Shown piece by piece: positions 5,737 to 18,336 of a DNA stretch of 64,000 nucleotides (position 1 is its first letter; each line of letters opens with the position of its first letter). The DNA comes from Luteitalea sp. TBR-22 (lineage in GTDB: Bacteria > Acidobacteriota > Vicinamibacteria > Vicinamibacterales > Vicinamibacteraceae), in the NCBI RefSeq assembly GCF_016865485.1, contig NZ_AP024452.1:2068501-2132500 (forward strand). The letters run 5' to 3'. Position numbers and translations under genes: made by a program. The notes under the pieces were generated by a model. It saw only the letters and a list, made by a program, of their open reading frames with translations, searched no databases and was not told the DNA's origin.

Positions 5737-5765
5737 GGCGCGTCGTTCGGGTATCGTGGATGTCG

Positions 5766-6116
5766 ATGAACCTGCTGACCTCCCTCGAGGCCCTCGAGGC
5801 CCTGCTCGCCCAGTCGCACCGTGGTCCCATCCTCCTGTTCAAGCACAGCGAGACCTGCGGGCTGTCCCTGCAGGCGCACGAGGAAGTCTCGGCCCTGGTG
5901 GCCGACGCGGCCTTCGGCGTGCCGGTCCACCTGGTGTCGGTGCAGCGCAGCCGTCCGGTGAGCGAGGCCATCGCCGCGCGACTCGGCGTGCGTCACCAGT
6001 CGCCGCAGATGCTCCTCGTGCTCGACGGCGCGGTCGCCTGGCACACGTCGCACCTGGCCATCACCGCCGACGCCGTGCGCGCCGCGGTGTCGCGCCTCCC
6101 CGTCGCCACCCGCTGA
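5766..6116 (+). CDS. ytxJ: YtxJ-like bacillithiol-system redox protein
   Basis: A ~116-residue cytosolic thioredoxin-fold protein of the YtxJ family, predicted to act on bacillithiol mixed disulfides. The diagnostic pattern is present: ILLFKHSETCGLS with a single active-site cysteine, then VHLVSVQRSRPVSEAIAARLGV, HQSPQMLLV and WHTSHL. A TATCGT box (5752-5757) lies eight bases before the ATG at 5766, so I prefer that start over the ATG at 5760, and the transcript may be leaderless. It stands alone between the kinase and the esterase operon. Its presence suggests that this organism makes bacillithiol. Confidence 0.85.
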   Translation: MNLLTSLEALEALLAQSHRGPILLFKHSETCGLSLQAHEEVSALVADAAFGVPVHLVSVQRSRPVSEAIAARLGVRHQSPQMLLVLDGAVAWHTSHLAITADAVRAAVSRLPVATR

Positions 6117-9566: not shown

Positions 9567-10373
9567 GTGCACGCCTGGCAAGCTCTCGTCCTCGGCCTCG
9601 TCGAAGGCCTCACGGAATACCTTCCGGTCAGCTCGACGGGACACCTGCTCGTGACGCAGCGCCTGCTGGGGATCGAGGCCAGCGAGGCGGCCAACGCGTT
9701 CGCCGTGTTCATCCAGGGCGGCGCCATCCTCGCCGTGCTGGTGCTGTACTGGCGCCGCATCGTCTCGATGCTGCTCGGCGTCATCGGTCGTGATCCGGCG
9801 GGCCTGCGGCTGGCCCTCGCGGTGGCCGTGGCGTTCCTGCCCTTCGCCATCGCCGGCTTCCTGTTCGACGACCTGATCGAGGGCTACCTGTTCGGCGCGC
9901 TACCCGTCGCGGTGGCGTGGGCGGTCGGCGGCCTGGTCATCCTGTACGTGTCGCCGCGCCTGGCGCCCGGCGGCGCCGCGCTCGACCACGTGCCGCTGCG
10001 GGCGGCACTGGTCATCGGGCTGTGCCAGTGCGCGGCCCTGTGGCCGGGCGTGAGCCGCAGCTTCGCCACCATCCTCGGGGCCATCGCCGCCGGCCTGTCG
10101 CTGGCCGCGGCGGTCGAGTTCTCGTTCCTGCTCGGGTTGCTGACGCTCGGCGTCGCCACGGCCTACAAACTGCTCGACGGCGGCGAGGCGATGGTGCAGG
10201 CCTACGGCGTGAGCGCGATGGCCCTCGGCTTCCTGGCCGCCTGGGTGTCGGCCATGCTGTCGGTCGTCTGGATGGTCAACTGGCTGCAACGGCGTCCGCT
10301 CGCCGTCTTCGGCTGGTGGCGCATCGCCGCGGCCGCGGTGGTCGTTGCCCTGGTGGCCACCGGGCGGCTCTAG
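9567..10373 (+). CDS. uppP: Undecaprenyl-diphosphatase
   Basis: A 268-residue, multi-spanning inner-membrane enzyme that recycles undecaprenyl pyrophosphate to undecaprenyl phosphate for peptidoglycan and polysaccharide export. It also gives bacitracin tolerance. Two family signatures are clear: EGLTEYLPVSSTGHL at residues 13-27, and the second signature region around WPGVSRSFATILGAIAAGLS. Length is normal for BacA/UppP. The start is a GTG at 9567, nine bases after the CBM9-like gene, so it belongs to the same run. Linking envelope-carbohydrate genes with lipid-carrier recycling makes sense, but a direct functional tie is inference. Confidence 0.95.
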   Translation: MHAWQALVLGLVEGLTEYLPVSSTGHLLVTQRLLGIEASEAANAFAVFIQGGAILAVLVLYWRRIVSMLLGVIGRDPAGLRLALAVAVAFLPFAIAGFLFDDLIEGYLFGALPVAVAWAVGGLVILYVSPRLAPGGAALDHVPLRAALVIGLCQCAALWPGVSRSFATILGAIAAGLSLAAAVEFSFLLGLLTLGVATAYKLLDGGEAMVQAYGVSAMALGFLAAWVSAMLSVVWMVNWLQRRPLAVFGWWRIAAAAVVVALVATGRL

Positions 10374-10433
10374 CCGACGCGGGCGTCCGAGGGCAGCGCG
10401 ACCAGCGCGAACAGGCTCCACGTTTCTTCGTGC

Positions 10434-10439
10434 TACACT
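10434..10439 (+). promoter_or_regulatory. Putative -10 box of the vapBC-type pair
   Basis: TACACT inside TGCTACACT, an extended -10 form, ends seven bases before the GTG start at 10447. At that distance transcription would begin at or next to the start codon. I see no good -35 element. The same TGCTAC arrangement occurs before two other genes in this window. Confidence 0.45.
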
Positions 10440-10446
10440 GTTTTTC

Positions 10447-10692
10447 GTGGCCGAGACCCAGAACATCACTCTCAGCCTGCCGCGTGACCTGCTTCGCCAG
10501 ATCAAGCGCGTGGCCGCGGACCGCGACACGTCGGTGTCGGCCATCATGACCGAGGCCCTGACTCGCGTCGCCGAGCACGATCGTCGCTACGCCGCGGCCC
10601 GTCGGCGGGCACGTGTCGCGATGAAGGGCGCCCGCTCGCTCGGGACGGGCGGTCGCGCGTCGTGGACGCGCGACGACCTGCATGAGCGCTGA
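10447..10692 (+). CDS. Ribbon-helix-helix antitoxin (CopG/VapB type)
   Basis: An 81-residue protein with a ribbon-helix-helix fold: a strand ITLSLPRDLLRQIKRVA, then helix DTSVSAIMTEALTRVAEHD, followed by a basic tail. Such proteins dimerise, bind the promoter of their own operon and neutralise the toxin through the C-terminus. The GTG at 10447 is the only start that fits the domain. It overlaps the PIN toxin gene by 11 bases, the usual antitoxin-first order. A -10-like box sits just upstream, probably inside the autorepression site. Confidence 0.82.
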   Translation: MAETQNITLSLPRDLLRQIKRVAADRDTSVSAIMTEALTRVAEHDRRYAAARRRARVAMKGARSLGTGGRASWTRDDLHER

Positions 10693-11110
10693 CCGACCCG
10701 CCGAGTTCGTCGACGCCAACATCCTGGTGTACGCCTTCGACGCCTCGGCCGGGGCGAAGCAGGTCGCGGCGGCTCGCCTCCTCGATCGGCTCTGGGACAC
10801 CGAGGAGGGGCGCCTCAGCGTCCAGGTGCTCCAGGAATTCTTCGTCACCGTGACGAGCAAGGTGGCCGCGCCGCTCTCGATCGACGAGGCCGAGGAGCGC
10901 GTGCGCGAGTTCGCGGCGTGGCAGGTGTTCGCGCCGACCGCCGCGGACGTGCTGGGGGCGATCGCGCTGCAGCGGACGACGCAGTATTCCTTCTGGGACG
11001 CGATGATCCTGCACGCGGCGGCCGAGTCTGGATGCGGCGTCTGCTGGAGCGAAGACCTCCGCGCTGGTCAGGTCGTGCGCGGCGTGGAAGTTAAGAATCC
11101 GTTCGCCTGA
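10682..11110 (+). CDS. PIN-domain ribonuclease toxin (VapC type)
   Basis: A 142-residue PIN-domain protein, predicted to be a Mg-dependent RNase toxin. The acidic site residues can be placed: D11 in FVDANILVYAFD, E52 in QEFF, D106 in WDAMIL and D125 in SEDL. Its ATG lies inside the antitoxin gene, so translation is coupled. VapC toxins usually cut tRNA or rRNA, but the target here is unknown. The QEFFVTVTSKVA segment is typical of a large PIN subgroup annotated only as PIN-domain protein. Confidence 0.88.
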   Translation: MSADRPAEFVDANILVYAFDASAGAKQVAAARLLDRLWDTEEGRLSVQVLQEFFVTVTSKVAAPLSIDEAEERVREFAAWQVFAPTAADVLGAIALQRTTQYSFWDAMILHAAAESGCGVCWSEDLRAGQVVRGVEVKNPFA

Positions 11111-11274: not shown

Positions 11275-11862
11275 ATGTCCAGACTCCTGTCCCTCTGCCT
11301 TGTGGCGTGCCTGTGCGCGTCGCCCGCGGCAGCACAGGCGCCAACCCCGGCAGCGGCACCCGCCCCTGCACCGCAGTACTCGGCAGACCTGAAGGTGGGC
11401 GACATGGCGCCCGACTTCTCGCTGCCGGGATCCGACGGCAAGACGCACAAGCTGTCGGAACTCCGGGGGAAGACCGTCGTGCTCGCCTGGTTCCCGAAGG
11501 CCTTCACCGGTGGTTGAACGGCCGAATGCAAGTCGCTCCGTGAGAGCGGCCCGATCCTGAAGACCTACGACATCACGTACTTCATGGCGAGCGTCGACAG
11601 CCTTGAAGACAACACGAAGTTCGCCCAGATGCACGAGGCGGACTTCCCGATCCTCGCCGACCCGTCCAAGGCGACGGCGATGAAGTACGGCGTCATCCGC
11701 ACCGACCGTCCGCCCGAACAGCAGTTCGCGGCGCGCTGGACCTTCTACATCGGTCCCGACGGGAAGATCCTGGACATCGACCGGCAGCCGAACACGGCGA
11801 CGGCGGGGCAGGTGATGATCGCGAAGCTCGACGCGCTCGGCATCAAGAAGAAGGCGCAGTAA
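11275..11862 (+). CDS. Selenocysteine-containing peroxiredoxin (BCP/PrxQ-like), in-frame TGA read as Sec
   Basis: A 195-residue exported thiol/selenol peroxidase, provided the TGA at 11515-11517 is read through. After a signal peptide (to AAAQA) and a Pro/Ala linker comes the AhpC/TSA fold: [47 protein letters not shown], then the family's later blocks [17 protein letters not shown] and [17 protein letters not shown]. The TGA sits exactly where the family has its peroxidatic cysteine (TGGCT), giving Sec81 and a possible resolving Cys85. The frame is intact on both sides with normal codon use. A hairpin follows at 11532-11550. A nonsense mutation is the alternative. No sel genes lie in the window. 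Confidence 0.82.
11532..11550 (+). promoter_or_regulatory. Candidate bacterial SECIS element
   Basis: A stem of seven pairs (GTCGCTC 11532-11538 with GAGCGGC 11544-11550, one U-G pair) closes a five-base loop CGTGA. The loop starts 21 bases after the UGA, and one of its first two bases is G. These features agree with published rules for bacterial SECIS elements (loop about 16-37 bases from UGA, G near the loop start). SelB binding is predicted, not shown. Confidence 0.6.
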
Positions 11863-11929: not shown

Positions 11930-12988
11930 ATGCACGTCTCGTTCAAGTCAGTGTTGGCGCTCGCCGTGGTGGGCGTCGCCGCGGTCGTGGGCCTGTCGGC
12001 CCAGCAACAGCAGCCCTACGTGGGGCGATGGAACATCACGCCCACTGGCCCTGACGCCCGTGGGGTGTACTTCCTCGACGTCAAGGAGGTCGATGGACAG
12101 CTGCAGGCGCTGTTCCTCGATCGCGGCGGCCATGCCACGCCCGTGTCGTGGATCAAGGTCGTCGACGGCGAGTTGCAGTGGCAGTACGGGGGCGGCGCCG
12201 AGAAGTTGCCCAAGCCGGCGTGCGGGCCGCTGTACCGGGCGAAGCTCGAGGGCGGCAAGCTGATCGGCAGCCACGAGACACCTGGCACGCCTTGCCCGCT
12301 GCCGCCGGGCGCGACCCCTCGGCCGCAGCCCGCGCCCCGGACGGTCAACTGGGTGGGCGTGCGGCAGCCGCAGTTCCCGCCGTCCAACGCCAATGGCGCG
12401 CACACCTACGGCAAGCCGGTGGTCATCGTCGGCGCCGGCGTCGGCAAGGAGACGTGGGCCGGCCTCGGCGACGGCACCCCCAACTCCTGCGTCGATCGCT
12501 GGACGATTGCCGACGGCGTGATGACCAACGGCGTCCCCGAGCGCGGCGAGCGCTCGACGTGCAACCCGCACACGAAGGAGAAGTTCAAGGACTTCAAGGT
12601 GAACTTCGAGTTCAACCTCGGGGCCGGCCAGAACAGCGGCATCTACCTGCGCGGGCGCTACGAGCTGCAGTTGATGCTGAACCCCGAGGGGCGCACCACC
12701 AGCTACCCGGGGCTGCTCATGGACATCTACGGCTGGAAGCGCGCCGACGTCTACGCCGGCAACCCGCCGGGAGAGTGGCAGATCCTCGAGGCGGTCGTCG
12801 TCGGCAACCGCGTGACCGCGGTGCTCAACGGCAAGAAGGTGCACGACAACGCGCTGCTGCCGGCGATCACCGGCGGCGCGATGGACGCCGACGAACTCGC
12901 GCCCGGCCCCATCATGGTGCAGGGCGACCACTCGAAGGTCGCGATCCGCAAGCTGGTCGTGACGCCGATCGTCAAGCCCGGCACCTAG
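11930..12988 (+). CDS. DUF1080 (3-keto-disaccharide hydrolase type) exported protein
   Basis: A 352-residue secreted protein with a clear signal peptide (LALAVVGVAAVVGLSAQ). The first ~120 residues form an unassigned beta-rich region (WNITPTGPDARGVYFLDV). The C-terminal half is a DUF1080 jelly roll: WTIADGVMTNG, FKDFKVNFEFNL, NSGIYLRGRYELQL, EWQILEAVVVGNRVTAVLNGKKV and IMVQGDHSKVAIRKLVV. Members act on 3-keto-glycosides or bind polysaccharides and are abundant in Acidobacteriota and Planctomycetes. It stands alone, in convergent orientation to the molybdopterin gene. Confidence 0.88.
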   Translation: MHVSFKSVLALAVVGVAAVVGLSAQQQQPYVGRWNITPTGPDARGVYFLDVKEVDGQLQALFLDRGGHATPVSWIKVVDGELQWQYGGGAEKLPKPACGPLYRAKLEGGKLIGSHETPGTPCPLPPGATPRPQPAPRTVNWVGVRQPQFPPSNANGAHTYGKPVVIVGAGVGKETWAGLGDGTPNSCVDRWTIADGVMTNGVPERGERSTCNPHTKEKFKDFKVNFEFNLGAGQNSGIYLRGRYELQLMLNPEGRTTSYPGLLMDIYGWKRADVYAGNPPGEWQILEAVVVGNRVTAVLNGKKVHDNALLPAITGGAMDADELAPGPIMVQGDHSKVAIRKLVVTPIVKPGT

Positions 12989-17421: not shown

Positions 17422-18336
17422 ATGAAGCGTCATCGCTGGATCTGGCTCGCTGCCTTCACCTGGCTGATCTCCGTCGCCGTCGGTATGCAGGTGCCAGAGG
17501 CGGCCAAGCCCAAGAAGGCGCTCGACTGGACCAAGGTCAACCCGAAGTTCGCAGGCGCCACCTTCGTCAACGACGACGCGACGTGCCAGTCCTGCCACGA
17601 AGACCCCATGAAGTCCTTCGCCCACACCCGGCACGCGAAGGCCTTCGCCCTCGATCCGGCGAAGGGCAACTGCGAGAGCTGCCACGGCCCGCGCAGCGCG
17701 CACGTCGCCGATCCCACCGCCGAGCTGAAGATGGACCCGGCCGCCTCGGCTACCTCGGGCGTGTGCCTGCAGTGCCATGAGGGTGCCACGCGCATGGCCT
17801 GGAAGGCCGGCGTGCACCAGGCCAACGGCGTCGGCTGCATCTCGTGCCACGACCCGATGGAACAGAAGAGCGAGAAGGGGCTGCTCATCAAGGCGTCGGC
17901 CAACGACACCTGCTTCAGCTGCCACCAGGAGGTGAGGGCCGAGGGCAACAAGATGTCGCACCACCCGGTGCGCGAGGGCCGCATGGACTGCGCCTCGTGT
18001 CACGACGTGCACGGCGCCAACGACGCGTTGCTCAAGAAGCCGACGCTCAACGACACCTGCTTCACGTGCCACGCGGAGAAGCGCGGGCCGTTCCTGTGGG
18101 AGCACGCGCCGGTCCGCGAGAGCTGCGCCACCTGCCATACCCCTCACGGGTCGAATCAGCGGAACCTGCTCACGGCGAAGGATCCGTTTCTGTGCCTGAC
18201 CTGCCACTCGTACGGCGGGCACATCAACCTGCCTCGCTACAACCGCGTGAGCAACCCCTACGGCAGCGGCTGCTCCAACTGCCACACGAGCGTCCACGGA
18301 TCCAATCACCCGTCGGGCCCGAAGCTCACCCGCTAG
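17422..18336 (+). CDS. DmsE/MtrA-family decaheme c-type cytochrome
   Basis: A 304-residue periplasmic cytochrome with a signal anchor/peptide (WIWLAAFTWLISVAVG). It has exactly ten CxxCH heme sites, from CQSCH near residue 55 to CSNCH near residue 287, with the pairing of distal histidines seen in MtrA/DmsE. Such proteins sit inside an MtrB barrel and pass electrons across the outer membrane to or from minerals, DMSO or other outside partners. The next gene, nine bases later, encodes that barrel. No outer-surface MtrC/OmcA cytochrome follows. The TCTTCAGG repeats upstream suggest control by the neighbouring two-component pair. Confidence 0.92.
   Translation: MKRHRWIWLAAFTWLISVAVGMQVPEAAKPKKALDWTKVNPKFAGATFVNDDATCQSCHEDPMKSFAHTRHAKAFALDPAKGNCESCHGPRSAHVADPTAELKMDPAASATSGVCLQCHEGATRMAWKAGVHQANGVGCISCHDPMEQKSEKGLLIKASANDTCFSCHQEVRAEGNKMSHHPVREGRMDCASCHDVHGANDALLKKPTLNDTCFTCHAEKRGPFLWEHAPVRESCATCHTPHGSNQRNLLTAKDPFLCLTCHSYGGHINLPRYNRVSNPYGSGCSNCHTSVHGSNHPSGPKLTR

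Follow-up and report, generated by a model that had tools for sequence, protein, structure and literature searches.

A probable UGA-encoded selenocysteine in a predicted exported, BCP-like peroxiredoxin of Luteitalea sp. TBR-22

Selenocysteine (Sec)-containing peroxiredoxins are an established kind of selenoprotein, and the available excerpts of published surveys count 12 of them among 285 selenoproteins in 2006 (PMC1794560), 253 in the GOS set (PMC2398784), and 91 in 2016 (PMC5029168). For the Acidobacteria, three selenoprotein families are given by 2006 in the excerpt of the first of these surveys (PMC1794560). The Sec-containing peroxiredoxins are listed as COG1225 Bcp (PMC9312934) or as PF00578 (PMC13188914), in both cases by a TxxU motif only, and these excerpts mention neither a Cys at position +4 nor export. 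The term 'UxxxC' does not appear anywhere in PMC13188914 or PMC2398784, and the CxxxC example in the available part of PMC2757866 is Sco1. A search of the open-access literature, a scope within which an absence weighs little, returned nothing on selenoproteins of Luteitalea or on a selenoprotein of Candidatus Solibacter, nor a peroxiredoxin paper that pairs PrxU with acidaminophilum.

The window, i.e., the whole stretch of 64,000 nucleotides that was analysed, contains on its forward strand a frame of 195 codons (11275-11862) that is open on both sides of a single TGA at 11515-11517, corresponding to residue 81. An earlier note, made from the sequence alone, had described this frame, had placed the TGA exactly where the peroxiredoxin family has its catalytic Cys, and had stated that standard gene calling splits such genes. 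All three observations held: reading with table 11 divides the gene into two ORFs (11275-11517 and 11584-11862), the product contains an AhpC-TSA domain (PF00578; 102.7 bits vs. 26) as well as a Redoxin domain (76.2 bits), and the TGA falls in the peroxidatic Cys column. On basis of its frame, its domains, and its AlphaFold2 fold, the gene is read as encoding a BCP-like peroxiredoxin with one UGA translated as Sec. Its first codons (11275-11340) specify a probable signal peptide, consisting of a hydrophobic run and an Ala-rich AxA-like site; this assignment was made by eye from the aligned N-termini of the protein and its relatives, several of which share the hydrophobic N-terminus with an AxA-like end, and the peroxiredoxin is predicted to be exported. 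The ORF is halved in a table 11 list, and all NCBIfam models score below their cut-offs for the protein.

Homologues were pooled from the best 80 of at least 541 relatives (at least 594 candidate stretches) in a genome collection, 29 new loci from a search of the order, and the genome's own loci. A tblastn search over the pooled loci gave 113 family matches in addition to the BCP-like protein of the genome, and removal of identical 180-base contexts left 96 distinct homologues. The site codon among these 96, which derive from a pool that includes the best 80 of at least 541 relatives, is TGA in 78, TGC in 17, and TGT in one, without any codon other than TGA or Cys. The Cys-containing homologues align as the earlier note had predicted, with Cys at the site in 18 of the 96. 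All five genomes searched from the genus, including the own genome, contain the TGA form, and because of this recurrence at the same codon the TGA is not due to chance. Both forms can occur side by side: at locus L112, a copy with Cys (TQGCTLEC) is immediately followed by a tandem copy with Sec, the same pair is found in L031, and L105 carries two Sec copies. An unrooted tree of the 96 rows requires four Sec/Cys changes, of which the starred branches force only one.

Comparison with the described systems places the window's family among the Sec-peroxiredoxins, with which it shares Sec at the peroxidatic position in PxxxTxxU, an AhpC-TSA domain, and a downstream bSECIS, whereas it differs from the TxxU proteins of the reviews by its UxxxC motif and its predicted export. 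PrxU (NF040737), a type that presumably derives from Eubacterium acidaminophilum, is likewise a model for Sec peroxidases, in which the TGA takes the U position of the TxxU motif, and was rejected as the identity of the protein (43.1 bits vs. a cut-off of 270). TGA-bearing PrxU genes over the cut-off were detected in three of the 60 genomes searched (G031, G008, and G023; loci L136, L137, and L138), where they read TFVUATEV or TFVUPTEL and have no Cys at +4, unlike the window's family; G008 and G031 carry both PrxU and the UxxxC family. The earlier designation as BCP/PrxQ-like could be retained in part. The protein resembles these atypical two-Cys enzymes in fold, length, peroxidatic position, and the presence of a second Cys on the same helix, but the position of that Cys does not agree, as it is at +4, next to a Sec instead of a peroxidatic Cys, whereas it is at +5 in three BCP-type sequences, i.e., L018 of the own genome (CTKEAC), 2ywn, and 5epf. 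A further BCP-type protein, 5enu, has no second Cys near the site. Since its second Cys is at +4 and not at +5, the window's protein is not a canonical BCP/PrxQ. The curated equivalogs of this group scored below their cut-offs (NF006960, 73.6 vs. 140; NF053650, 61 vs. 260). Finally, AhpE of M. tuberculosis has the same fold and 29-31% identity, but its entries are titled one-Cys, whereas Cys at +4 is found in 96 of 96 distinct homologues of the window's family, and in 26 further copies that were read.

The active site was examined in 37 aligned sequences, comprising 36 family members and the genome's own BCP-like protein, and in an AlphaFold2 model with a mean pLDDT of 92.8, which adopts the BCP/AhpE/PrxQ fold. 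In the model, helix 79-90 has residue 81 close to its beginning and also carries Cys85 (codon at 11527-11529), the proposed resolving residue; in 87 of the 96 homologues, no further Cys was found in the scanned stretch, which extends from 40 codons upstream of the site to about 110 codons downstream of it (or as far as the stop codon). From fold and conservation we infer peroxidase chemistry and a Sec81-Cys85 bond, and the gene product is interpreted, with high confidence, as a thiol-dependent peroxidase with the BCP/PrxQ-AhpE fold, which is exported, acquires its peroxidatic Sec by SelB- and hairpin-dependent recoding, and is resolved through Sec81 and Cys85. In the proposed sequence of events, SelA would make Sec-tRNA-Sec with selenophosphate from SelD, SelB would carry the Sec-tRNA-Sec, and the loaded SelB would bind the hairpin 15-33 nt past the UGA, such that the UGA is recoded as Sec81, a step suggested by the machinery and the element. 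Sec81, near the N-end of its helix, would reduce a hydroperoxide and become a selenenic acid, which Cys85 would resolve by formation of the intramolecular bond, and a putative envelope dithiol reductant would regenerate the enzyme.

Two redox residues on one helix, an export-like N-terminus, and weak matches to NCBIfam ResA-like models would also suit a selenoprotein with another function, such as an envelope thiol-disulfide oxidoreductase or a peroxide sensor built around the UxxxC pair. This reading is considered improbable in view of the PxxxTxx(U/C) motif, in which none of the 37 rows deviates at P74 or T78 and which is accompanied by a nearly invariant R154, and of the nearest solved structures by fold, which are the peroxidases BCP, PrxQ, and AhpE. 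L173, a further family member outside the 37 rows, is without the motif Pro.

Translation of UGA as Sec, the central claim of the earlier note, depends on dedicated machinery, the absence of which from the complete genome had been named as its refutation. The genome, a single contig of 6,468,984 bases, contains all of the components: profile searches identified selA at 4591636-4593015 (489 bits vs. a cut-off of 267.9), selB at 3736730-3738598 (344.6 bits vs. 242.25), the product of which has the SelB winged-helix domains, and selD at 6457993-6458916 (336.2 bits vs. 125), as well as a tRNA-Sec at 5775755-5775846 (65.3 bits vs. a gathering threshold of 47) that is assigned anticodon tca by ARAGORN. 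The selD gene itself (locus L023, 2392-2430, reverse strand) has an in-frame TGA, in the N-terminal context AACAG-U-ASK, which brings the likely selenoprotein genes of this genome to at least two. A stable hairpin is predicted after the UGA of selD (-25.6 kcal/mol for 47 nt).

The distribution of the two forms was compared with that of the machinery in 60 genomes, the own genome included, using a membership threshold of 120 bits, which falls into a gap between successive scores (126.5 and 80.4). Members of the family were found in 52 of these genomes, representing 13 of the 15 sampled families of the order, and eight genomes had no member above 120 bits. The site codon could be read in all 52 family-holding genomes, 42 of which have the TGA form and 10 only the Cys form, with TGC in the family copies read from G005, G006, G007, G011, G015, G032, G044, G056, G057, and G059, and also in a second copy of G032. 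A selA or selB match accompanied the TGA form in all 42 genomes, compared to four of the 10 Cys-only genomes (Fisher p 1.0e-5), and with selA alone the corresponding numbers were 41 with and one without versus four with and six without (Fisher p 6.7e-5). The selA match was over the cut-off in 39 of the 42, with partial selA only in G035 and G042 (122 and 191 bits), and G047, an assembly of 780 contigs, had no selA match, a selB match of 335.3 bits, and no tRNA-Sec, its best match being a tRNA-Ser. In the six Cys-only genomes G015, G032, G044, G056, G057, and G059, a meaningful selA match was absent (E 4e-5 in G044, no match in the others), no selB exceeded the cut-off, and the best tRNA-Sec match was a tRNA-Ser. 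These six genomes span families f2, f5, and f10, all three of which also include genomes with both the TGA form and selA, and shared descent alone therefore does not explain the co-occurrence. The remaining four of the 10 Cys-only genomes (G005, G006, G007, and G011) do have selA and tRNA-Sec, so that the Cys form also occurs without loss of the machinery. The tRNA-Sec covariance search alone was non-discriminating, with 12 of 15 genomes over the cut-off; ARAGORN reported a tRNA-Sec in G001, G005, G006, G007, and G011, and a tRNA-Ser as the best match in all nine genomes, among them G047, that lack a genuine selA. Besides the family members, TGA-bearing redoxin-like matches of about 23-40% identity recur in the order, which suggests further Sec-containing redox proteins. 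One weak match (33%), far below the family, was seen in G010, which has no selA, and it contains one TGA and one TAA.

Downstream of the UGA, a bSECIS-like hairpin (11532-11550, forward strand) is formed by a stem of 11532-11538 with 11544-11550 (GUCGCUC/GAGCGGC; seven pairs, one of which is U.G) and a loop at 11539-11543 (CGUGA). It begins 14 nt past the UGA and occupies 15-33 nt after it, and its seven pairs, five-base loop with a G, and distance of 14 bases are as had been described. According to the excerpted rules, a bSECIS has a loop of 3-9 nt, a stem of 4-16 bp, a G in loop positions 1-2, a spacing of 16-37 nt, and an MFE of -7.5 or lower (PMC13188914). The hairpin agrees with each of these, with a loop of 5, a stem of 7, a G at loop position 2, a spacing of 21 nt, and a fold of -11.5 kcal/mol for 39 nt. 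The full seven pairs were found in 65 of the 78 Sec genes and in none of the 18 Cys genes, in which the maximum was six; the aligned stem was incomplete in 13 of the 78 Sec genes, eight of which had five or fewer of the seven pairs. Sec genes had a mean of 6.63 pairs vs. 3.39 under synonymous randomisation, a value reached by none of 2000 randomisations, and the Cys genes, too, paired above synonymous expectation (4.39 vs. 3.02, reached by 0 of 2000). The MFE of the region after the UGA, relative to synonymous shuffles, did not separate Sec and Cys genes (median z -0.55 and -0.69; p 0.61).

Covariation of the stem was assessed in 42 chosen sequences, 41 of which are distinct, against 500 shuffles. 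Three of the five measures exceeded the shuffles and were reached by none of the 500, i.e., paired cells (95.5% vs. 83.6%), cells changed on both sides (30 vs. 5.5), and the covariation score (0.355 vs. 0.130), and the element is thereby recognised as a covarying, SECIS-like hairpin. The number of pairs with a both-side change (4 vs. 2.8; as high in 107 of 500) and that of further pair types (9 vs. 7.7; as high in 128 of 500) were not above the shuffles. Pairing dropped to 33-65% when the partner was slid by 1-3 columns. The outermost pair, which joins two third-codon positions, occurs as all four Watson-Crick types (GC 24, CG 8, AU 7, and UA 1) with 16 both-side changes. Moreover, the Arg codon in the loop is CGT in 71 of the 76 Sec genes that encode Arg there, compared to only 9% of the Arg codons elsewhere in Sec and Cys genes (p 2e-50, with relatedness ignored).

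By comparative genomics the UGA-bearing peroxiredoxin is a selenoprotein, its Sec being assigned from the sel machinery, the Cys homologues, and the covarying hairpin. A changed code, a suppressor, or ordinary readthrough, by which the UGA would be read as Trp, Cys, or Arg without Sec, is very unlikely given the complete machinery and the second TGA gene, selD, the restriction of the TGA form among the 52 genomes to those with a selA or selB match, Cys as the sole alternative at the site (18 of 18), and the covariation of the hairpin. A pseudogene, or a sequencing error for TGC or TGT, would account for a stop codon that splits the frame, but it is still less credible, because the TGA recurs in homologues from many assemblies, the downstream protein and the hairpin are conserved, and third-position GC remains high after the TGA (0.94, vs. 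0.82 before it).

The Sec-peroxiredoxin reading has several implications. Bacteria of this acidobacterial order are, we assume, probably aerobic and live in oxygen-exposed soil. The family would tie the use of Sec to peroxide defence in 13 of the 15 sampled families, which contrasts with the statement in the excerpt of a 2026 review that selenoproteins are seldom kept by aerobic bacteria (PMC13188914), and this spread is the surprising part of the data. The UxxxC subfamily and its spread look undescribed in the open-access literature searched, and the family may already have been counted under Prx in earlier surveys. A broader proposal, in which a distinct exported UxxxC seleno-peroxidase subfamily extends across most sampled families, employs selenium for oxidant defence of the envelope, and takes the Cys form where the machinery is gone, is one that we hold to be evenly balanced. 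Sec and Cys forms occur naturally, sometimes within the same genome, as at L112, which would allow a direct measurement of the catalytic gain of Sec, and the UxxxC spacing offers a model in which to study the opening of peroxiredoxin helices for the resolving bond.

Four window proteins that flank the peroxiredoxin matched only their own locus when searched by tblastn against 135 loci with flanks of at most 2.5 kb. The adjoining upstream gene region (10345-11110, forward strand) encodes a ribbon-helix-helix protein and a PIN-domain protein, which likely constitute a toxin-antitoxin pair. Just downstream (11930-12988, forward strand) lies a gene for a protein with a 3-keto-disaccharide hydrolase domain (PF06439) and, by eye, a signal-like N-terminus, which had no match in the other loci of this search. 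Elsewhere in the window, the forward strand encodes a protein similar to the monothiol bacilliredoxin BrxC (5760-6116; PF11009, 102 bits), and a multihaem c-type cytochrome-like protein (17422-18336) in the translation of which many CxxCH motifs were recognised by eye.
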